A stretch of 29,738 nt of DNA from a virus. Within the stretch, counting starts at the first letter, position 1; every line of letters begins with the position of its first letter. A program made the translations under genes and the position numbers. The stretch lies in IMG/VR virus record IMGVR_UViG_3300038548_000112, positions 1-29,738 of that record; one strand, 5' to 3'. Below the pieces are notes generated by a model. It was not told the DNA's origin, made no database searches, and saw only the letters and a list, made by a program, of their open reading frames with translations. This document shows positions 1,737 through 29,691 of the stretch, piece after piece.

Positions 1737-2026
1737 ATAACGCACGTGACATCTACATAACTTCTGCCCAGGGTAAGAGCCTTACCGAGCAGATGGCAAA
1801 GGTTAGTCCAGACATTAAGCTGGGTGAATTTCTAACGGCCCTTGCGAAAACTAACGAACGCTCGCTCAAGCTTGGCAGGTGTTACATCAGATGTAACACA
1901 AAACACGACCCACCCCTCGGTGACATGATACTTAGGGTGGAATTTGAGGGTCTTGACGCTGATATTGAGTCCTTCTGCAAGGATTTGTTGCATCTGATTA
2001 CGTCAACTGATGTAACAGGTGGTTAG
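1733..2026 (+). CDS. Hypothetical protein next to the repeat region
   Basis: 97 residues. I place the start at the ATG at 1733, which overlaps the previous stop (ATGA); an in-frame ATG at 1688 would run through the upstream gene. The sequence is a mixed alpha/beta protein (MNNARDIYITSAQGKSLTEQ; then a K/R-rich middle with two cysteines; then ILRVEFEGLDADIESFC and a helical end). No family is recognised. Its coding sequence carries several copies of the 9-bp element GATGTAACA/TGTTACATC, including a 19-bp palindrome at 1880-1898, so the gene overlaps the putative origin or control region. A role in binding those sites is possible but unsupported. Confidence 0.75.
   Translation: MNNARDIYITSAQGKSLTEQMAKVSPDIKLGEFLTALAKTNERSLKLGRCYIRCNTKHDPPLGDMILRVEFEGLDADIESFCKDLLHLITSTDVTGG
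1880..1898. repeat. 19-bp palindrome of two opposed 9-bp elements
   Basis: TGTTACATC-A-GATGTAACA is a perfect inverted repeat around one central A. It is the outermost full copy of the element that recurs up to 2219, and it lies inside the coding sequence of the 1733-2026 gene. Confidence 0.85.
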
Positions 2027-2034
2027 ATGTAACA
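1986..2034. repeat. Further 9-bp elements at the 3' end of the 1733-2026 gene
   Basis: Exact GATGTAACA copies lie at 2009-2017 and 2026-2034, and a one-mismatch TGTTGCATC lies at 1986-1994. The copy at 2026-2034 begins on the last base of the gene's stop codon. Confidence 0.75.
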
Positions 2035-2084
2035 CAATGAGTTCCGCGCGTAACCCCTTGTAAGAGCTGGGGATTTTACCGATT

Positions 2085-2111
2085 TGTTACATCTGTTACA
2101 TCTGTTACATC
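2085..2111. repeat. Left iteron triplet (TGTTACATC x3)
   Basis: Three exact tandem copies of TGTTACATC with no spacer (2085-2093, 2094-2102, 2103-2111). They face a second triplet of the opposite orientation at 2193-2219 across an 81-bp A+T-rich core. The core starts with the palindrome TTAATATTAA (2112-2121). Confidence 0.95.
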
Positions 2112-2192
2112 TTAATATTAAATAAGTGTCTATTGAAATATAGTGTACTAATCAGCTCTATATAGGTGGTAAATACTCTGCAATGGTAATCC

Positions 2193-2219
2193 GATGTAAC
2201 TGATGCAACAGATGTAACA
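2193..2219. repeat. Right iteron triplet (GATGTAACA-like x3)
   Basis: Three tandem 9-mers: GATGTAACT (2193-2201), GATGCAACA (2202-2210) and GATGTAACA (2211-2219). They are the reverse complement of the left triplet, with one mismatch in each of the first two. CCCCAGCTCCTTA at 2240-2252 mirrors TAAGAGCTGGGG at 2061-2072, so the symmetry extends beyond the triplets. Confidence 0.93.
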
Positions 2220-2314
2220 AGTGTTGTTGACAAGGACGTCCCCAGCTCCTTAAAAACCCGCCCGTTGCGAGAACGACGTCCATAAATTAAAACGTCGAGC
2301 GGTCTGAGATAACG

Positions 2315-2376
2315 GATCAAACTGTCATGATCTAGATCTGCTCAAACGCTAATAGTTCAGGATCGGGATCGCGATC
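2315..2376. repeat. Cluster of six GATC sites with two palindromes
   Basis: GATC occurs at 2315, 2329, 2335, 2361, 2367 and 2373, six times in 62 bases where chance predicts fewer than one. The palindromes GATCTAGATC (2329-2338) and GGATCGCGATCC (2366-2377) make up part of it. Dense GATC sites are known from Dam-regulated enterobacterial origins; Dam methylation in this host is not known. Confidence 0.8.
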
Positions 2377-2903: not shown

Positions 2904-2992
2904 GCACTTTCGCAGTATAAAAACTAATGCGAAATCCCCCCAATGTTGGCACGAGACTTGCATACCCAATCGCCCAGGTTTGTAGTAATCTA

Positions 2993-3090
2993 AGTTGTAC
3001 AACTCCAGGTTGTTATCCTGCCAAGCAATACAACTCCAGGTTGTACAACTCCAGGTTGTATGCCCCCACCCCGATACAACCTAAAGTTGT
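2993..3090. promoter_or_regulatory. Array of four ACAAC-N5-GTTGT operator-like palindromes
   Basis: Inverted repeats lie at 2999-3013, 3030-3044, 3045-3059 (all ACAACTCCAGGTTGT) and 3076-3090 (ACAACCTAAAGTTGT). Their starts are 31, 15 and 31 bases apart, so the array is symmetric. An extra AGTTGTACAACT palindrome (2993-3004) overlaps the first. The half-sites resemble the ACAA...TTGT operators of lambdoid helix-turn-helix repressors such as 434, with one more base in the spacer. The array lies between the leftward promoter at 2867-2903 and the late rightward block. The rest of 2727-3219 holds no gene I can support. Confidence 0.7.
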
Positions 3091-3183
3091 GACGGAAGAC
3101 CGGGGGGGTATGAACCCCAACCAAAACTTTTTTCCCACTACCCGACATCCACACATGGAGACGAAATTCAAGACATTCAGGGA

Positions 3184-4083: not shown

Positions 4084-4493
4084 TGCCAGAAGAAATTAAA
4101 ATAGTAGAGACGATGTCCACTGAGCAGTATGAAGCTCAGCAGGCATTGGAGAGTAAGCTCAACGACATTGCCACGGCTTCTACACAGTACGGTGGAGGCA
4201 AGCTACTCAAGTTCACGCGCTCTACCAAAGTAACTCGGGCAGATGTAGTTGAGTCTTTTACCAACGCTTTCCAGATGATAGGGGGAGTTGATAGACTTGC
4301 GCTGTGGGCTGACCAGAACCCAGGCGATTTCTACAAACTGTTCGGCAAACTGATGCCCCCCGCTGCGAGCGACTTACTGGACGGCCAGCGTGAGTTCGTG
4401 GTGAGGCACATCCTCCCGCCCCCTGAAATGGATACGAACCCACGCCAGACTCAGCGCACGCTGGAAGCGGAGTACACTGAGATAGATGCCTGA
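4083..4493 (+). CDS. terS: Terminase small subunit (DNA-recognition)
   Basis: 136 residues. Small terminase subunits bind the packaging site and load the large subunit. The diagnostic part is residues 55-95: a helical stretch, then QMIGGVDRLALWADQNPGDF and YKLFGKLMP. The pattern GG-x-x-x-L-x-x-W-A-x-x-N-P-x-x-F-Y-x-L-x-x-K-L-x-P is typical of one family of phage small terminases. Position supports it: it lies directly upstream of an unmistakable large subunit and overlaps it by eight bases. The C-terminal tail is polar and acidic, as expected for contact with the large subunit. Confidence 0.82.
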   Translation: MPEEIKIVETMSTEQYEAQQALESKLNDIATASTQYGGGKLLKFTRSTKVTRADVVESFTNAFQMIGGVDRLALWADQNPGDFYKLFGKLMPPAASDLLDGQREFVVRHILPPPEMDTNPRQTQRTLEAEYTEIDA

Positions 4494-5799
4494 AGTAACA
4501 GTCCCTTATGAACCACGACCACAATTCATGCCACTCCACCTGCGAAAGCAGAGATGGGCGGTCGTGGTGGCGCATAGGCGAGCTGGTAAGACGGTGGCTA
4601 CCCTCAATGACCTCGTGTCCATGGCGCTCTATACTGACAAGGAGCGAGCCAGGTATGCGTACATCGCTCCATTCTACAGCCAAGCGAAGCAGATCGCTTG
4701 GGATTATCTGGTCCACTACTGCCGCGATGTTTCTGTCAAGGTTAGTATTTCAAGTCTTTCTATTGATTTATTTAACGGTGCTCGTATCACTCTATACGGT
4801 GCTGATAATCCTGACGCACTTCGCGGGGTTTACTTTGACGGCGTTGTCATTGACGAGTATGGCGACTGCAAGCCTTCGCTATGGACTGAGATTATCCGTC
4901 CGACTTTGGCAGACAGACGTGGGTGGGCTACCTTCATTGGAACTCCGAATGGGCTGAACCATTTCTACGACATTTGGGAGTTTGCCAAGGCGCATCCAAA
5001 CGAATGGTTCACTTTACAACTGCCACAGAGCGAAACAGGCATTCTCGACCAAGACGAGGTCGAAGAAATGCGGACCATGATGGAGGAAGATGAGTTTGAG
5101 CAAGAAATTGAATGCTCGTTCATGGCCGCGACTCGAGGTGCGTTCTACAGCAATGAACTCAAGAAGGCACAGATTGGCTCTTACCCGGTTGACCCCAGCC
5201 GAAAATCGAACTACGTTTTTGACCTTGGCTACACGGATTCTACAGCAATATGGCGATGGACGGAATACCCGGACGCCATTGAAATAAACTTGACTTATGA
5301 ACAGGATAACAGGTCGATACAGTATTATATTGATTGGCTCCACTCTCAGCGGGAAGCCGGTCTTACGATTGGAGATGTGTGGTTGCCTTTCGACGCTAAG
5401 GCCAAGACCCTCCAAACTGGTAGAAGTATCGTGGAACAATTCCTCAGTGGTGGGATACGGCCTAAGATTGTCCCGAAACTCGATTTGCTGGACGGAATTC
5501 AAGCAGCCAGAATGCTTTTTCCAACCCTGTACTTTGACGAACAGGGCTGCAAAGATGGACTATTGGCGCTCCGTAGCTACCGGCGCATCTGGAATCCCGA
5601 GCGCAGCGAGTATGGAGCCAAGCCCGTCCACGATTGGTCCAGCAACTATGCGGATTCCTTTAGGTACCTCTGTCTTGTCGCTAAAACCAAAGAAGACAAC
5701 CTCCCTGGAGAGCCAAGGCCATTTGCACGAGAAATCAACTATGGCTTCTGCTTGGATGACCTCTGGAAGACAAGAGAAGAGCATGATGGGTGGCACTGA
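4486..5799 (+). CDS. terL: Terminase large subunit (packaging ATPase/nuclease)
   Basis: 437 residues. This is the motor that pumps DNA into the prohead and cuts it. Walker A is at residues 30-36 (HRRAGKT), Walker B with the catalytic glutamate at about 120-124 (VVIDE), and the coupling motif near 147-155 (ATFIGTPNG). The C-terminal RNase H-like nuclease begins with FDLGYTDSTAIW, giving a first acidic residue, and ends with the acidic D in SNYADSFRYL; the middle acidic residue is probably in WLPFDAKAK. The length is at the short end for the family but all motifs are present. It follows the small subunit with an eight-base overlap, and its TGA shares a base with the next ATG. Confidence 0.95.
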   Translation: MPEVTVPYEPRPQFMPLHLRKQRWAVVVAHRRAGKTVATLNDLVSMALYTDKERARYAYIAPFYSQAKQIAWDYLVHYCRDVSVKVSISSLSIDLFNGARITLYGADNPDALRGVYFDGVVIDEYGDCKPSLWTEIIRPTLADRRGWATFIGTPNGLNHFYDIWEFAKAHPNEWFTLQLPQSETGILDQDEVEEMRTMMEEDEFEQEIECSFMAATRGAFYSNELKKAQIGSYPVDPSRKSNYVFDLGYTDSTAIWRWTEYPDAIEINLTYEQDNRSIQYYIDWLHSQREAGLTIGDVWLPFDAKAKTLQTGRSIVEQFLSGGIRPKIVPKLDLLDGIQAARMLFPTLYFDEQGCKDGLLALRSYRRIWNPERSEYGAKPVHDWSSNYADSFRYLCLVAKTKEDNLPGEPRPFAREINYGFCLDDLWKTREEHDGWH

Positions 5800-6429: not shown

Positions 6430-8472
6430 ATGTCCACTACAGAAACCAGTTCGAGAGAAATGGGACAATCGCCTGTTGAACCTCGGGTAAATGATGACAA
6501 AAACCCCGATATACAAGGCGAACTTCTTGGTGTTCCCAAGTACGATATTCAGTACTGGAAAGACCAGATAAATTTAGCCAGTAAGGAGTTACAGAAGTTC
6601 CATGAGCGTGGGCGTAAGACTCAGCGACGCTACCTCGATGACCGTGAAGCCAATGACGAGCAAAGCAGAAAATTCAACCTTTTCTGGGCTAACACGGGAG
6701 TCCTTCGGGCTGCTCTATATGCTAACCCACCCTCACCCACCGTTAAGCGCGAGTGGGACGATTTCAATGACGACGTGGGCCGAGTGGCAGCGGAAATCCT
6801 GGAACGACTACTCAAACTTGGACTCCAGCGCCCAAGAGGCGATATGGACGTCGCCTTCTCCTACGCTACCGAAGACCGCTTAATTCCCGGGCTTGGGCAG
6901 GTCTGGCTGAGGTACGACGTACAGACACAGACTAAGCAGATTCCCAACACGCCCATAGAATACGAGCAAATTACGGACGAAGAGGCCATAACGGACTACA
7001 TCTATTGGGAAGACTTCCTGTGGTCTCCGTGCCGTATTTGGGAAGAGTGTCGGTGGGTTGCGCGTCAGGCGCACATGACTAAAGAGCGAGCAGTTGCACG
7101 TTTTGGCGAAGAGGTTGCCAATCGGCTAACCTACAGCGATAAGTTTGAGAATGTGGACCGAGTGGGCGCACAGGACAATACCCCTGTTCGCCGCCCTGAG
7201 GCCACGTCCAGCGTGTGGGAGATTTGGAACAAAACCACCAGGACTGTCTACTGGGTTTCCACCACTGATGTAGATCGCGTACTGGATAAGAAAGAAGACC
7301 CACTTGGTTTGGAAGGGTTCTTCCCTTGCCCGAAGCCGCTCCTTGCTACTCACAGCACGAGCAACATGACTCCGCGGCCGGATTACTACATGACCAAGGA
7401 TCAGTATGAAGAAATTGACACGCTTAACACGCGAATCAACTGGCTTGTCAAAGCCTGCAAAGCTGCCGGAGTCTACGACAAGTCAGCAGAGGGCATCCAG
7501 CGCCTCTTCCAACAGGGCACCGAAAACTCGCTCATACCCGTTGATAACTGGGCTATGTTTGCAGAAAGGGGTGGTGTTCAGGGACAAATTGACTGGATAC
7601 CTATTGAGCAGATTGCAGCGGTAATCACCATTCTTACTGCGAAACAGGGTGAAATGGTCCAGCAACTTTACGAGTTGACTGGTATCTCCGACATCATGCG
7701 TGGGAATACCGAAGCACGAGAGACCCTCGGTGCCCAGCAACTCAAGGCTCAGTACGGTAGTGTCCGGCTCCAGTATATCCAGGGCACCATCGCTGAGTTT
7801 GTCACAGAGGCTATGCGTATCAAGGCCGACATTATCTCCAAGCACTTTCAACCGGAGACGATTATTAAGAAAAGCCTTATACAGATGATTCCGCAGGTTG
7901 ACCACCCGCTTATTCAGCCTGCTATCCAGCTTCTTAAGAATACGCCCGTCGCAGCCTACCACCTGGAGATAGAAGCGGACACCATGTCCATTCCGGACTA
8001 TGCTGTGGAAAAACAGAGCCGGCTGGACTACATCACGGCTATGGGGCAACTTATCAGCCAGAGCTGGCAGGCTATTGAGGCTGCGCCAGAGATGGCCCCC
8101 CTCGTGCTACAGACTCTCCAGTGGGGTGCGGCTGGGTTTAAGAACGGCAGGTACCTGGAAGGTGTGCTGGATCAGGCTGTGGACCAGGCCATGAAGATGA
8201 TGCAGAAGAAGCAGCAAGAGCCGCCTCCGCCTGACCCCGCAGTCATTGAGGCGCAGGCTGACGCGAAGCGTAAGGACCAGGAAGCCCAACAGGATGCGAT
8301 GATTAAGGCGCGAGATGCCAACGCTGAGGTGCAACAGGGCAACATGGAGACGCAGAATGAAATCCAGCAGGATAATCTGGATGCTGCTAATGAGCGCCGT
8401 CTTGCTTGGCTCAAGGGGCACACTGACGCTGAAATCGCGCGCATGGTAGCGAGGGCTAGGACTGATGCGTAG
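6430..8472 (+). CDS. Portal protein (head-tail connector)
   Basis: 680 residues. Portals form the dodecameric ring at the capsid vertex through which DNA is packaged and ejected. The size, the position between terminase and scaffold, and the sequence support it: an N-terminal helical region with FNLFWANTGVLRAALYANPP, a middle with IYWEDFLWSPCRIWEECRWV, then YELTGISDIMRGNTEARETL and GAQQLKAQYGSVRLQ, a block common in portals of this podovirus group. The last 100 residues (QKKQQEPPPPDPAVIEAQAD onward) are a charged, Gln-rich coiled coil, like the barrel of P22-type portals. It overlaps the next gene by eight bases. Confidence 0.9.
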   Translation: MSTTETSSREMGQSPVEPRVNDDKNPDIQGELLGVPKYDIQYWKDQINLASKELQKFHERGRKTQRRYLDDREANDEQSRKFNLFWANTGVLRAALYANPPSPTVKREWDDFNDDVGRVAAEILERLLKLGLQRPRGDMDVAFSYATEDRLIPGLGQVWLRYDVQTQTKQIPNTPIEYEQITDEEAITDYIYWEDFLWSPCRIWEECRWVARQAHMTKERAVARFGEEVANRLTYSDKFENVDRVGAQDNTPVRRPEATSSVWEIWNKTTRTVYWVSTTDVDRVLDKKEDPLGLEGFFPCPKPLLATHSTSNMTPRPDYYMTKDQYEEIDTLNTRINWLVKACKAAGVYDKSAEGIQRLFQQGTENSLIPVDNWAMFAERGGVQGQIDWIPIEQIAAVITILTAKQGEMVQQLYELTGISDIMRGNTEARETLGAQQLKAQYGSVRLQYIQGTIAEFVTEAMRIKADIISKHFQPETIIKKSLIQMIPQVDHPLIQPAIQLLKNTPVAAYHLEIEADTMSIPDYAVEKQSRLDYITAMGQLISQSWQAIEAAPEMAPLVLQTLQWGAAGFKNGRYLEGVLDQAVDQAMKMMQKKQQEPPPPDPAVIEAQADAKRKDQEAQQDAMIKARDANAEVQQGNMETQNEIQQDNLDAANERRLAWLKGHTDAEIARMVARARTDA

Positions 8473-9999: not shown

Positions 10000-10980
10000 A
10001 TGGCATTCCCAAACGTATCCGACATCGTCACTACGACTATTGAAAGTCGTACGCGACAAATCGCGGATAACGTAACCAAGAACAACGCGCTACTCGCGCG
10101 TCTCGAGCAGAGGGGCAACGTGAAGCCCTTCGGCGGCGGTTCCGTTATCTATCAGGAGCTGAGCTTCGCCGAGAACGGCAACGCCGGTTGGTATTCGGGA
10201 TACGACCTCCTGCCGGTGGCAGCGCAGGACGTGATTTCGGCAGCCGAGTACGCGATCAAGCAGCTTGCCTGCCCGGTCGTGATGTCCGGTCTCGAGATGC
10301 TCCAAAACAATGGCCGCGAGCGTATGATCGACCTGATGGAAGGTCGTATCAGCGTGGCCGAGTCCACGATGGCAAACGTCCTGGCGGACGGCGTCTATTC
10401 GGACGGCACCGGCGACGGTGGTAAGGAAATCGGTGGCCTCGATATCGCCATACCTACGGATCCCACCGTGGGCACCTATGGCGGAATCGACCGCGCTGCG
10501 TTCCCGTTCTGGCGCTCCCAGGCATTTGACTCCGCCAGCATCAACGGTGGTGCCCTCACAGCGGCCAACGTCCAGAACCTCATGAATGAGGCATGGGCGA
10601 GCCTCGTGCGTGGCAGCGACCGGCCCGACCTCATCCCCATGGACTCGACGTTCTGGAACTACTACGTTTCCAGCTTGCAGAGCCTTCAGCGCTTCAACGG
10701 CACTGAAGTCGGCAAACTGGGGTTCCCGACCATCAAGTACATGGATGCGGACTGCGTGCTGGACGGCGGCATCGGCGGGTTCTGCCCAGCCGAGACAGCG
10801 TTTATGATGAACACCAAGTACATCTTCCTGCGGCCTCACCGCGACAGGAACATGGTGCCCTTGATGCCCAGCAAACGCTACGCCATCAACCAGGACGCCG
10901 AAGTCCAGATCCTCGGCTGGGCCGGAAATCTCACTACCTCCGGTTCCGAGTTCCAGGGTCGTCTCTTCGACACAACCTAA
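10000..10980 (+). CDS. Major capsid protein
   Basis: 326 residues. It forms the icosahedral shell, presumably with the HK97 fold. Evidence: position after the scaffold, and sequence such as ALLARLEQRGNVKPFGGGSV, AENGNAGWYSGYDLLPVAAQ, a long helical spine candidate (AEYAIKQLACPVVMSGLEML) and MNTKYIFLRPHRDRNMVPLM near the end, all typical of podovirus major capsid proteins. The gene stands apart: it has a 102-base leader, a GGAG site 7 bases before the ATG, hairpins on both sides, and codons that end in C or G far more than its neighbours, all consistent with high expression. Confidence 0.92.
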   Translation: MAFPNVSDIVTTTIESRTRQIADNVTKNNALLARLEQRGNVKPFGGGSVIYQELSFAENGNAGWYSGYDLLPVAAQDVISAAEYAIKQLACPVVMSGLEMLQNNGRERMIDLMEGRISVAESTMANVLADGVYSDGTGDGGKEIGGLDIAIPTDPTVGTYGGIDRAAFPFWRSQAFDSASINGGALTAANVQNLMNEAWASLVRGSDRPDLIPMDSTFWNYYVSSLQSLQRFNGTEVGKLGFPTIKYMDADCVLDGGIGGFCPAETAFMMNTKYIFLRPHRDRNMVPLMPSKRYAINQDAEVQILGWAGNLTTSGSEFQGRLFDTT

Positions 10981-11452: not shown

Positions 11453-11836
11453 ATGGCTCGCGTAACCCGAGAAATCGGTCGTGTCGTCAAAGGTGGCGAC
11501 ACGACCGTCTATTCTATAGTGTTTGATGACGCTGACGGCAGGATTGCGTCTCTCATTATGGTTGGCAATGCTAATGAAAGATCTATCATGGGCATTGGCG
11601 GTGGAGGGGCTTCTCGTACGGATGGTTTGAAAAATGACCCCACAGTGACTATAGACTTGCTTCCAGACAATATCTTCATGATTGACGATGGTGGTGTCTG
11701 GAAGAAGCCTGTTGGTCTTAAGACTGCTATTGAGATGTTTCACGAGCAAATGGCTCCTGCAGAGATTACTCGTAGGCGTGGAGGATTAAAGCCCGCCGAA
11801 CCTATCCGCTTGCCTCCTAGAGTGATAACTCCGTGA
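11453..11836 (+). CDS. Hypothetical protein of the head-decoration group
   Basis: 127 residues, mixed beta and helix: TTVYSIVFDDADGRIASLIM, a glycine patch (GIGGGGASR), then an acidic loop and a basic, proline-rich tail. No motif is recognised. The TGA overlaps the GTG start of the large PKD-repeat gene by three bases, so translation of the two is probably coupled and the products may work together on the virion. Confidence 0.68.
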   Translation: MARVTREIGRVVKGGDTTVYSIVFDDADGRIASLIMVGNANERSIMGIGGGGASRTDGLKNDPTVTIDLLPDNIFMIDDGGVWKKPVGLKTAIEMFHEQMAPAEITRRRGGLKPAEPIRLPPRVITP

Positions 11837-14400
11837 CTATAGGAATTGGGTCTACTACTGTCGGTGGTGACGAAGAAGTAGATGAAGTAACTGTATCTCA
11901 CGAAACAGTCGCGGGTAAAGGCAGGCTCTTGATGGTCGGCCTTGCTTTCAATAATTCCGAGGATGAAGTAGCAACTGGCGTCACTTACGACGGAGTGGCT
12001 ATGGACTTCGTTATTGCTGAGATGCGGGATAATGATTCTCGTGCTGAACAGTGGAGGATGTACGACCCTCCCGTGGGTACGTTTGATGTTGTCGCTACTT
12101 TGGATGCCGTATTAGAAGCTAACAATGGCTTCGTTGTTGCGGCTATAAATTTCACAGAGGTAAACTCCGCCGACCCATTGGGTGCTTCAGCTGCTGCAGA
12201 GGCTGAGACAGATTTTGCAGAGGTTACAGTAGCTTCGGCAGTTGGCGACATTGTCCTGGATACTTTTGCAGCTGAAGATATGGGCATACCCGGACCTCCG
12301 GGTGCTGGGCAGACCGAGCAATGGAATACTGCCGCTGGTAGCGGTACTCGAGAAGAGCACGCTGCTGGCAGTACGAAAGCCGGTGCCTCTCCTAACGTCA
12401 CTATGGAGTGGGATATTGCTGACCCCGATAAGTGGGTGCTGCTTGCTACGTCTATTCAGCCATCAGTAGTTCCTACTGTAGATGCTGGTGGTCCGTATAC
12501 CGGCGATGTTGATGTTCCCGAATTACTCGCTGCTACAGTGACTCCGGGCACTGACCCTGCTCCTACTTTCTTGTGGTCTATTGACTCTGGTCCTGGCGGC
12601 GGGGTGTTCACACCCAGTGCCACGGTTGAAGATCCTAGCTTTGAAGCTGATGCAGTTGGCACATACACACTGAGGCTTACAGTCTCTACTGTAGATGCGC
12701 CAGATGTATTTGACACGGCGAGCTTTGAGAGTGAAAGCGCCTTTACTGCCCCGATAGTAGACGCCGGTGGTCCGTACAATGGCGACTCTGGGCAAGCTAC
12801 CGCTCTCAACGCTACGGTAACTCCGGGCAGTGACCCAACTCCTGCCCTGCTGTGGACGATTGATTCAGGCGGCGCTGGTACGTTCTTACCTAGTGCGATA
12901 GTAGAAGACCCCACATTCACACCTACATTCCCGACAGTAGGTCCGTATACGCTGCGGCTCACTGTTACGCCTAGTGATGGCCCTCCCGTCTTTGATACGG
13001 CTGCTTTTGAGAGTGACCCTGTAGAGCCGATAGTAGACGCTGGTGGTCCGTATTCAGGTACGGTTGACACCCCCATCGCTCTCAATGCTACGGTGACGCC
13101 GGGCACAGATCCTGCGCCTACGCTGTTGTGGACAATTGATTCAGGCCCAGGTACAGGAGATTTCCTACCTAGTGCTACGGTAGAAGATCCTACGTTTACT
13201 CCAGATCTTACTGGCACCTACACGCTCAGGCTTACTGCTACTTCTAGTGATACTGCGCCAGTTTTTGACACCGCCAGCCTCGATAGTCAGGGGTTCGTAC
13301 CTGTTTCAGCACAGAGTGTTGTGGGGATAAAGACTGATAATTTAGGTCGTCCTGTTTGCGCCTTCCTGGGTATAGGTGACCCCCTCCCCGCTGGGGCAGT
13401 ACATCTGGCTGGCGATGCTCTTGCCTTTGACGGCACCTTACTCGTAGCCATTGATGACGGGGCGGCTCCCCGTACTGTGGTCAATGGTCTGCCACACACG
13501 AATAACGGCATTCGCATTGTTATAGAGGCACCGGGGGATGTAAACCTCAATGGTTGGCGTCTAAGAAGTGAGCCCCTGGCTCAGTGCATCAATGATGGTG
13601 CTCCCGGAGTTCCTTTCTACAACAAAGGCTTCGCTATTGATGGCACAGGGCTGATGTTTGTAGTGGATGGTGGACCAGCGCCCACTCCTCCACCGGCTGA
13701 GTTTTTCCCGCCTGCTTTTTCAAATCTACAGCTTTGGTTTGATGTTCAGAGTAACGATGTAACCTTTGGTCCTCTTAGCACTATCAATGGAGTGATTTCG
13801 CTAGACGGCCAAAATGTTCGTGAAATGAATAGTAGAGGTACGGGTGCTGTAGCCATGATTCAAAATGGGGGTAATCCTCCAATAATGCGTGATGATGGTA
13901 GTGGCCCTAATGGAACAAGGTTCCTTGAACACATAGGGACAAATGTGCTGATTTCCAACCCAGACCCTTCATATACTGGCGGGTTGACAGGGTATGCGTT
14001 CTATGTTGTTTGTCGCGCCAATACAATTCCACTCTCAGCCGTGAATAGAGATGCCTATAAGTGGGTTCCCACTCTTCTCTGGGGGAATAATACGGGGAAT
14101 GCTTGGCAAGTAGGGTTTGGATCAACCGCCAGAGTTACTCTTAAATCCATGGTTCTAAATCAGTGGGTCTATTTGTACGGCACGATTGATAACGCCACAG
14201 ATGCTTATGTGGCTAAGGCTTCTGGAGTAGCACAAATATCTGGAACTTACAACACTTACAACAATCCTTTTGTGAATGCAGATGTGCAACTTGGCGAAAG
14301 CAGCATTGATGTAGTAGAGGCAGCATCTTATGACAGAGAGTTGACTTTACTGGAGTTGACTGACTTAGAAACTTATTTTAACGATAAGTTTGGATTGTAA
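11833..14400 (+). CDS. Large virion surface protein: beta domain, three PKD/Ig-like repeats, lectin-like C-terminus
   Basis: 855 residues from GTG at 11833. Residues 1-210 resemble a beta-sandwich module of secreted bacterial proteins (GKGRLLMVGLAFNNSEDEVA; then FVVAAINFTEV; then VGDIVLDTFAAED). Three PKD-like repeats follow, starting at about D217, D310 and D402 with VDAGGPY, each 92-93 residues and ending GTYTLRLTV or similar. After a linker comes a C-terminal domain from about 625, starting SNLQLWFDVQSNDVTFGPLS, with a LamG/concanavalin-like plan and ending in a helix-like DLETYFNDKFG. The gene lies just after the capsid genes, so capsid display with glycan binding is plausible; a tail role cannot be excluded. 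Codons are A/T-richer than those of the capsid gene. Confidence 0.75.
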   Translation: MTIGIGSTTVGGDEEVDEVTVSHETVAGKGRLLMVGLAFNNSEDEVATGVTYDGVAMDFVIAEMRDNDSRAEQWRMYDPPVGTFDVVATLDAVLEANNGFVVAAINFTEVNSADPLGASAAAEAETDFAEVTVASAVGDIVLDTFAAEDMGIPGPPGAGQTEQWNTAAGSGTREEHAAGSTKAGASPNVTMEWDIADPDKWVLLATSIQPSVVPTVDAGGPYTGDVDVPELLAATVTPGTDPAPTFLWSIDSGPGGGVFTPSATVEDPSFEADAVGTYTLRLTVSTVDAPDVFDTASFESESAFTAPIVDAGGPYNGDSGQATALNATVTPGSDPTPALLWTIDSGGAGTFLPSAIVEDPTFTPTFPTVGPYTLRLTVTPSDGPPVFDTAAFESDPVEPIVDAGGPYSGTVDTPIALNATVTPGTDPAPTLLWTIDSGPGTGDFLPSATVEDPTFTPDLTGTYTLRLTATSSDTAPVFDTASLDSQGFVPVSAQSVVGIKTDNLGRPVCAFLGIGDPLPAGAVHLAGDALAFDGTLLVAIDDGAAPRTVVNGLPHTNNGIRIVIEAPGDVNLNGWRLRSEPLAQCINDGAPGVPFYNKGFAIDGTGLMFVVDGGPAPTPPPAEFFPPAFSNLQLWFDVQSNDVTFGPLSTINGVISLDGQNVREMNSRGTGAVAMIQNGGNPPIMRDDGSGPNGTRFLEHIGTNVLISNPDPSYTGGLTGYAFYVVCRANTIPLSAVNRDAYKWVPTLLWGNNTGNAWQVGFGSTARVTLKSMVLNQWVYLYGTIDNATDAYVAKASGVAQISGTYNTYNNPFVNADVQLGESSIDVVEAASYDRELTLLELTDLETYFNDKFGL
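12475..13290 (+). repeat. Three tandem PKD-repeat units in DNA
   Basis: Units begin with GATGCTGGTGGTCCGTAT at 12481, GACGCCGGTGGTCCGTAC at 12760 and GACGCTGGTGGTCCGTAT at 13036. The periods are 279 and 276 bases, all in frame. The second and third units share GATAGTAGACGC before the Gly-Gly-Pro-Tyr codons, so unit loss or gain by recombination is possible. Confidence 0.8.
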
Positions 14401-28364: not shown

Positions 28365-28724
28365 TTAGTCTTGGTCAACATATCCTTTGCCTCGTGGCAC
28401 CCCACTATCGGGGTTCATGTACCTGTTCATAGCATTCACACTTTCCAGGGCATCCCTGGCTTCAGCATGTTCCTGCGCCAGCACGTCCCCTGTCTTTTCT
28501 ACAGGTATTTCTGTGTGCTGTTCGAGCTCATGCTCAATTAGTTTGTCAATGAAATGCTTCGCCTTACGCAGGTCTTCCACCCCATTCTTCTTACGCCAGC
28601 GCATCATATATTTGATAACCTGGGCTTCCATGTACGGGATGTCGTGCATTAGGACGAAGTCCCAATGCTCAATGCGCTCCCCTTTATAGTGAGCGCCGCC
28701 TTCTTGTTTGTCGTTAGCTGCCAT
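28365..28724 (-). CDS. DUF3310 protein (T7 gp1.7-related family)
   Basis: 119 residues. The DUF3310 core covers residues 8-70: GGAHYKGERIEHWDFVLMHD, then IPYMEAQVIKYMMRWRKKNG and VEDLRKAKHFIDKLIEHE. The family is common in phages and is often annotated as nucleotide kinase because T7 gp1.7 has such activity; I have not seen a kinase motif here, so the enzymatic role is uncertain. The ribosome site is GGAGG in AACACGGAGGCAG just before the ATG. It overlaps the upstream thymidylate-synthase-family gene by 11 bases, and both probably belong to nucleotide metabolism. Confidence 0.85.
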   Translation of the reverse strand: MAANDKQEGGAHYKGERIEHWDFVLMHDIPYMEAQVIKYMMRWRKKNGVEDLRKAKHFIDKLIEHELEQHTEIPVEKTGDVLAQEHAEARDALESVNAMNRYMNPDSGVPRGKGYVDQD

Positions 28725-29691
28725 TCTGCCTCCGTGTTAACCATGTGACGCAAGCGTGCCTCCAATCAGGAGCATCGATGTAGTTTGCCAAGTCAATTGC
28801 TATTGGCAGATCTCTTTCCTTATATGCCTGGAAGCTTTGCCACATAGGGTATGCTACACCAGATAAAAAAGAAGAGCCAGTATTATCGTGCGGCTTGTCT
28901 AGCCACCCCTTCAGCTCGTCATCAAAGACAGCGTAGTCTCCTTGGAATAAGAGGGGGCCGGGGGATATAGCCTCCCCTAGATAGTGGTTGATTGACCGCG
29001 GGTTCCCCCACAATTCTTCAAACCGGGGCATTCCTGGATAAACGTGGAAGTTATTACTGAATTGATATAATTTACCGACTAGCTTTCTTAGCGAACAGGC
29101 TATATACTCCTGCAGAAAACTAAAGTGAACGACATTGGCCCCATAGCATCCCCAGATGGCATCGTTGCTCCGACACGTGATAGTCAGGTCTACGTAGTCT
29201 TGTCGAATGTTTACATACAACTGAGTGTTGCATGGTAGATCTTTAGAGTCTGTTCCCAAGTCCACGAGAGGGTCCCACATAGTGATGACCGCTCTCCTAC
29301 TATCTGGGTGCTCCTCTAACAGATGTACGACCTTGTGTACTTGGTCTTCGTTCCAATGCTGACGCCATCTGTACCCGTATGCTCCTTGTAGAGTTTCACC
29401 GTCATCACTAAACTCACGCATACGGGGGAGCAGATACTCCACGTACTCTAGATCTCTGCGTCCCGCCAGCATCCACATAGACTCAAAGAAATGGAAGAAA
29501 GGGTTGGCATCACGTTGTTCAGAAAACAGTACACGTTCACGGGGATTATGATAAACATTAACCACGGGATAAGGAGATACAATGACCTGACCATTTCTAC
29601 TATCCTGTACCTCCCCTGATATCTTTAGCCACCACAGACCATCCCCGTAGTTTTCGTTGACGTTTAACCTGCTAATCGTGTGGACTGACAT
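28714..29691 (-). CDS. Thymidylate synthase-family enzyme (dUMP/dCMP methyl- or hydroxymethyltransferase)
   Basis: 325 residues. ThyA-fold motifs in order: E70 in FFESMWMLAG (folate-side glutamate), GAYGYRWR (103-110), the SRR dipeptide at 131-133 for phosphate binding, catalytic C154 in DLPCNTQLYV, RSND (174-177), and NFHVYPG (214-220). The residue after the catalytic Cys is Asn, not the His of cellular ThyA. The segment after RSND is GCYGANVVHF, one residue longer than the usual G-x-P-F-N. These features recur in phage enzymes related to dCMP or dUMP hydroxymethylases, so the product may be thymidylate or a modified base. GGAG lies 10 bases upstream of the ATG. Confidence 0.82.
   Translation of the reverse strand: MSVHTISRLNVNENYGDGLWWLKISGEVQDSRNGQVIVSPYPVVNVYHNPRERVLFSEQRDANPFFHFFESMWMLAGRRDLEYVEYLLPRMREFSDDGETLQGAYGYRWRQHWNEDQVHKVVHLLEEHPDSRRAVITMWDPLVDLGTDSKDLPCNTQLYVNIRQDYVDLTITCRSNDAIWGCYGANVVHFSFLQEYIACSLRKLVGKLYQFSNNFHVYPGMPRFEELWGNPRSINHYLGEAISPGPLLFQGDYAVFDDELKGWLDKPHDNTGSSFLSGVAYPMWQSFQAYKERDLPIAIDLANYIDAPDWRHACVTWLTRRQNGS

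Follow-up and report, generated by a model that had tools for sequence, protein, structure and literature searches.

Facing nine-base iterons around an A+T-rich core, a probable replication origin in a lineage of uncultured tailed phages

The DNA analysed here (the window) comprises the 29,738 nucleotides (29.7 kb) of a virus record, a fragment of a tailed phage with genes for terminase, portal, major capsid, amidase, tail proteins and thymidylate synthase, and a near-identity search with it in named phages gave zero matches. The features that concern us are the following.

1688-2026, + strand: small ORF of 112 aa, overlapping auxiliary sites
1880-1898: outermost site pair, a 19-bp palindrome TGTTACATC-A-GATGTAACA, auxiliary, inside ORF 1688-2026
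1986-2034: auxiliary sites, TGTTGCATC at 1986 (+ strand) and GATGTAACA at 2009 and 2026 (- strand)
2064-2073 and 2239-2248: exact outer inverted 10-mers, GAGCTGGGGA and TCCCCAGCTC, candidate members of the element
2085-2111, + strand: left arm, three exact tandem copies of TGTTACATC, period 9
2112-2192: A+T-rich core, 81 bp, G+C 28%, proposed unwinding region
2193-2219, - strand: right arm, three inverted iterons AGTTACATC, TGTTGCATC and TGTTACATC, period 9
2457-2726, - strand: small convergent ORF of 89 aa, to the right of the array
4486-5799, + strand: terminase large subunit (TerL), the anchor gene
6430-8472: portal
10000-10980: major capsid

The array sits between the 3' ends of the two small convergent ORFs, neither of which has a family match; relatives were also sought with ORFs 1688-2026 and 339-1037, and neither scan returned any. 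Allowing at most one mismatch, TGTTACATC has 11 sites within 340 bp (eight exact, three with one mismatch), starting at 1880, 1890, 1986, 2009, 2026, 2085, 2094, 2103, 2193, 2202 and 2211, so the count of about eleven copies given by the first-pass annotation was reproduced, as were the two facing triplets, the 81-bp core and the palindrome within the gene. These numbers are far above those in shuffled sequence: the whole window holds 15 sites versus 5.7 +/- 2.4 in shuffles, and the best 9-mer cluster per 350 bp reaches 11 copies (8 exact) versus 3-4 (2 exact) in 12 dinucleotide shuffles. The inverted arms, taken as 2084-2111 and 2193-2220, are 28 nt each, 93% complementary and separated by 81 nt. 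The core between them has a G+C fraction of 0.284 versus 0.524 for the window, only 0.12% of segments of equal length are less stable, and across the window no 81-bp segment is less stable than the one that starts at 2084. The mirror symmetry was also said to extend into flanking arms; exact 10-mers do exist there, and they are kept as candidate members only, because they are centred about 4 bp away from the centre of the main arms, and TCCCCAGCTC, on the right, is absent next to the array of the related contig L007. Two independent contigs start at or in the array (position 1 of L002 is window 2253, and position 1 of L007 is about window 2104), perhaps because assembly is interrupted by strain variation in the array. 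An exact scan of viral contigs with TGTTACATCTGTTACATC gave 65 stretches, most with only two copies, and was set aside; L007 is the only one that shares phage DNA with the window.

Relatives were collected through TerL, except L176, which was found through its helicase. In the related phages checked, the array lies at the same place and has a plan of three sites facing three around a weak core, so that the refuting outcome named by the first-pass annotation, absence from that place, did not occur. The 9-mers themselves differ among lineages: GGGTAYWCT in L008, L009 and L013 (sites of the GGGTATTCT/GGGTACACT type), GGTAGCCNN in L111, L116, L118 and L176 (in the last as GGTAGCCAG/AGTAGCCAG), and GTTGCCNNG in L115 and L119, while L114 has TGTAGCCT with a period of 8, and the sites are of the GGTAGCC or GTTGCC type in relatives whose TerL is about 60% identical. 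L007 shares TGTTACATC with the window, with three inverted copies and a similar start of the core, its left arm being lost at the contig end. A site search found 9-13 sites per array region versus at most 0.31 expected from the rest of the source, and 4 sites in L007, where the left part is missing. The relatives' cores span about 60-92 bp, and the usual order is an auxiliary "<<" or "<<<" cluster, then ">>>", the core and "<<<", with two sites only in the left arm of L008 and L009. A "<<" or "<<<" cluster lies left of the core pair in L008, L009, L111, L114, L115, L116, L118 and L119, and "><" pairs in L111, L118 and L013 occupy the same relative place as the window palindrome at 1880-1898. 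The distance from core to TerL is likewise similar, 2374 bp in the window and 2.3-2.44 kb in L008, L013, L114, L115 and L119. By a strict tandem-plus-inverted score, eight sources exceeded their shuffles (the window, L008, L009, L118, L115, L119 and L176 with period 9, and L114 with period 8); L111 was marginal and L013 was missed, and both of these arrays were read by the site search. The paired score found no array in the cultured phages M6, AXL_3, PW916 and phiM5, which carry more distant helicases of the kind described below, and this absence counts against reading the array as an origin. A further cluster of alternating ACTGTAT repeats lies right of the array in L111 (7911-8095) and in L113 (4874-5058).

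The protein that most plausibly partners the array is a helicase whose gene lies outside the window record and was read from G001, a contig with 98-99.9% identity to the window; G001 starts at window 2253, just right of the array. Array and helicase never occur on one contig in this particular lineage, and TGTTACATC is paired with the G001 helicase because G001 and the window are near-identical. G001 encodes PolA as well as this 695-aa protein, in which DUF5906, DUF3854 and a weak VapE-like match were the only Pfam matches (E<=0.001), with neither DUF927 nor D5_N/Primase_Cterm among them. The structural model of the protein (pLDDT 76) matches the C-terminal region of NrS-1 polymerase with Z 25, the best solved-structure match for the helicase and its C-terminal part (E 9e-17), and SaPI5 PriRep1 (7om0/7ola) with Z 18 over residues 254-655, the alignment reaching residue 651-655; its N-terminus resembles the primase domains of T7 gp4 and DnaG (Z about 12). 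Segment 573-661 is predicted to form helices and then a wing of two strands, as would be expected of a winged helix; this reading rests on the full-length model, where pLDDT is about 80 in the segment, since the C-terminal 175 residues modelled alone gave pLDDT 35. The helicase gene is upstream of the array in 8 of 8 independent relatives in which the gene and the sequence beyond it can be read, at 83-227 bp in L119, L114, L118 and L176 and at 1.2-4.7 kb in L115, L008, L013 and L111; L174 and L175, whose contigs stop within the gene or short of the expected position, are outside this count. No distant-group helicase was found in the GTDB genomes scanned.

The type of iteron is inherited together with the C-terminal part of this helicase. 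Gene-by-gene comparison of three complete or near-complete genomes (the window lineage, L008 and L013) placed the window lineage closest to L008 for TerL, portal and PolA, in line with the species tree; for PolA the identities are 75% between the window lineage and L008, 70% between the window lineage and L013, and 68% between L008 and L013. The helicase departs from this tree, with 57%, 55% and 62% for the same three pairs. Its N-terminal 300 residues are near-equally similar in all pairs (61-65%), residues 401-530 give 46%, 48% and 67%, and residues 601-695 give 38%, 36% and 67%, so that the C-terminus is 36-38% identical across iteron types versus 67% within the GGGTAYWCT type. In the TerL tree the TGTTACATC phages (window and L007) group together within a GGGTAYWCT background with support 88/97, which suggests that the switch to TGTTACATC iterons is probably derived. 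A second and sharper case is the pair L114 and L119, in which identity is 99% for TerL and 97% for the SF3 core, versus 30% for the helicase C-terminal domain, and in which the iterons are TGTAGCCT versus GTTGCCTTG, with different periods too. Left of L119:6171, a point within the helicase gene, their DNA is about 85% identical, and homology resumes at L119:6682, immediately right of the array (77-84% identical), so that the replaced segment is exactly the C-terminal domain plus the array. L114 is a 5.3-kb contig, and other genes may therefore also differ in this phage. Co-variation and the L114/L119 swap agree, and both suggest that the iterons are read by the helicase's C-terminal part.

We turn to function, where the sequence comparisons favour an origin: the array is probably the replication origin of this phage lineage, at which a phage primase and SF3 helicase would bind both sides and open the core. 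The first-pass annotation had suggested initiator binding and strand opening at this place, and with the array co-varying with a helicase-type initiator this is the best-supported reading. We infer initiator binding, ring number, melting of the core, priming and direction as follows. The initiator would be the phage-encoded primase and superfamily-3 (SF3) helicase, whose winged-helix-like C-terminal domain would recognise the 9-bp iterons, the three tandem sites of each arm recruiting several helicase subunits. By analogy, two helicase rings of opposite orientation, one per side of the core, might then assemble and melt the A+T-rich DNA between them, after which the TOPRIM-type N-terminal primase domain and the phage family A polymerase could begin bidirectional synthesis; the auxiliary sites on the left would probably raise the local concentration of initiator or control firing. 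In the closed relative L008 (41.5 kb) the GC-skew minimum lies at 1.3 kb, 4.2 kb from the array at 5.5 kb, and this skew is not diagnostic for the origin because it follows gene orientation.

The main rival is a stem-loop (cruciform) origin as for pRN1/BIP-1, in which an SF3 protein would recognise the folded arms and not the 9-mers. All 11 arrays tested do fold, 10 of them better than all 200 shuffles (DNA folding z -5.9 for the window, weaker in L119 with z -1.9), and pRN1-type proteins, which likewise have SF3 and winged-helix domains, use a roughly 100-nt stem-loop downstream of their gene. Nevertheless, we regard it as improbable: the same 9-mers also occur outside the stem in both orientations, uneven spacing in the right arm of L013, L118, L119 and L114 breaks the stem and keeps the sites, and a hairpin has no need for the likeness of sites within a genome. 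It is the sites outside the stem and the unequal right-arm spacing that favour site recognition over the hairpin. An operator array for a phage transcription regulator or anti-repressor, serving autoregulation or control of the late operon, would suit repeated intergenic sites that include a perfect palindrome and in part overlap a small ORF; this reading has been weakened and is now very unlikely, as the array lies between convergent gene ends and not at a gene start, 3+3 sites flanking a meltable core are unusual for operators, and the site sequence switches together with the helicase C-terminal domain, as a cassette. Still less likely is a pac/cos packaging site for the small terminase, suggested by its position, about 2.4 kb ahead of the terminase genes, and by the start of contigs G001 and L007 at or in the array. 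Against it, the two contigs start at separate positions (2253 versus about 2104), the sequences of the window, L008 and L013 continue across the array, and L114 and L119 have quite different arrays although their TerL is 99% identical and their DNA over the genes before TerL about 84% identical, which argues against a terminase as the reader. A partition (centromere-like) site or replication fork barrier would fit iterated sites in a convergent intergenic region and has the slightest probability of all, given that the genes tested included no recognisable ParA/ParB-type gene and that the cassette link is to the helicase.

Read as an origin bound by an SF3 helicase, the array comes close to several described systems, and the earlier statement that no element of this plan had been described needs qualifying in view of the SaPI Rep and the pRN1/BIP-1 stem-loop origins. 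In the SaPI Rep/ori system (SaPI5 PriRep1, PDB 7om0/7pds, and the related SCCmec Cch2) the initiator is likewise a (primase-)helicase; in that system the C-terminal domain of a self-loading helicase reads short iterons, and the origin is directly downstream of the initiator gene. The isolated C-terminal domain of Cch2 binds its own repeats, and two hexamers have been proposed for SaPI Rep origins (PMC7581432). The G001 helicase model shares the fold of these proteins, a D5/SF3 core with a PriRep1-type C-terminal domain, and short iteron clusters are likewise present, here flanking an A+T-rich stretch on both sides. The array differs from SaPI origins in its strict 9-bp period with mostly 3+3 sites, in a helicase of other Pfam families at the sequence level (DUF5906, DUF3854) and in the kilobases that separate gene and origin in several phage lineages. 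Moreover, it belongs to a tailed phage with its own TerL, portal and capsid and not to a satellite or island; as these genes are in the same record, we say that the array works like a SaPI Rep origin, not that it is one. The alpha protein of satellite phage P4 is also a primase-helicase whose C-terminal part recognises short iterons, with sites in both orientations; P4 is a satellite and requires two separate regions, ori and crr.

Other replication proteins share part of this picture. NrS-1 polymerase, the best solved-structure match, is also a phage replication protein; it has an archaeo-eukaryotic prim-pol and an 8-nt priming site present twice, and such an iteron array has not been reported there (PMC7102993). 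The phage primase here is instead DnaG/T7 gp4-like, and a separate PolA is present. The pRN1/BIP-1 origin, downstream of the gene, is a stem-loop roughly 100 nt long whose shape is kept while its sequence diverges (PMC4234260). An SF3 helicase replication protein with a large stem-loop near its gene is found in both systems, whereas the pRN1/BIP-1 stem is not described as iterons and the 9-mers here also occur outside the stem; in place of an archaeo-eukaryotic prim-pol N-terminus, the phage protein has a T7 gp4/DnaG primase and DUF3854. Plasmid iteron origins (RepA/RepE) have direct repeats of about 17-22 bp and a DnaA-dependent Rep, in contrast to the 9-bp period and inverted arms of the array, and no plasmid Rep was recognised among the proteins scanned.

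If the origin reading holds, it gives uncultured phages known here from metagenome contigs alone both an origin and an initiator, and widens the range of iteron-reading SF3 helicases from satellites to non-satellite tailed phages. The L114/L119 pair is a natural domain swap in which the reading of double-stranded DNA sites by an SF3 helicase, two-ring loading, and origin diversification as opposed to cross-use can be tested. We further raise, as a tentative idea that may well prove wrong, an exchangeable origin module in which the initiator C-terminal domain and the facing iteron arrays recombine jointly; close relatives might thereby gain incompatible origins with the other replication machinery unchanged, perhaps escaping satellites or superinfecting relatives with the same initiator.

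Several minor observations concern other parts of these genomes. A conserved inverted repeat, TGTTGCAGAATnCAGAATAA ... TTATTCCGCTTTCTGTAACA, is common to AXL_3 and PW916, where it lies between the primase and terminase genes (L100 47412-47545; L098 18932-19064) and is possibly an origin with another plan; nine-base clusters in L098 and L100 were rejected as arrays, being low-complexity repeats. In the window, operator-like palindromes ACAACTCCAGGTTGT (three copies) and ACAACCTAAAGTTGT lie at 2990-3095, upstream of the structural operon, and ACAACCT repeats are far more numerous in L007 (950-1120) than in that stretch. The long ORF 11833-14400 contains imperfect internal repeats of 66-70% identity (window 12470-13290). 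Elements like TCAAACGGC(T)ATAG and TAGTAATTAAAGTTGTTTT recur at window 2330-2360 and 2385-2420, L007 245-420, L008 5800-5830 and L023 around 7990, and are possibly promoters of a phage-specific kind. Finally, genes for thymidylate synthase, 5-hmdU DNA kinase and a TET-associated glycosyltransferase stand in a row (window 28714-29691; L022 16574-18161), which suggests hypermodified thymidine in the phage DNA.
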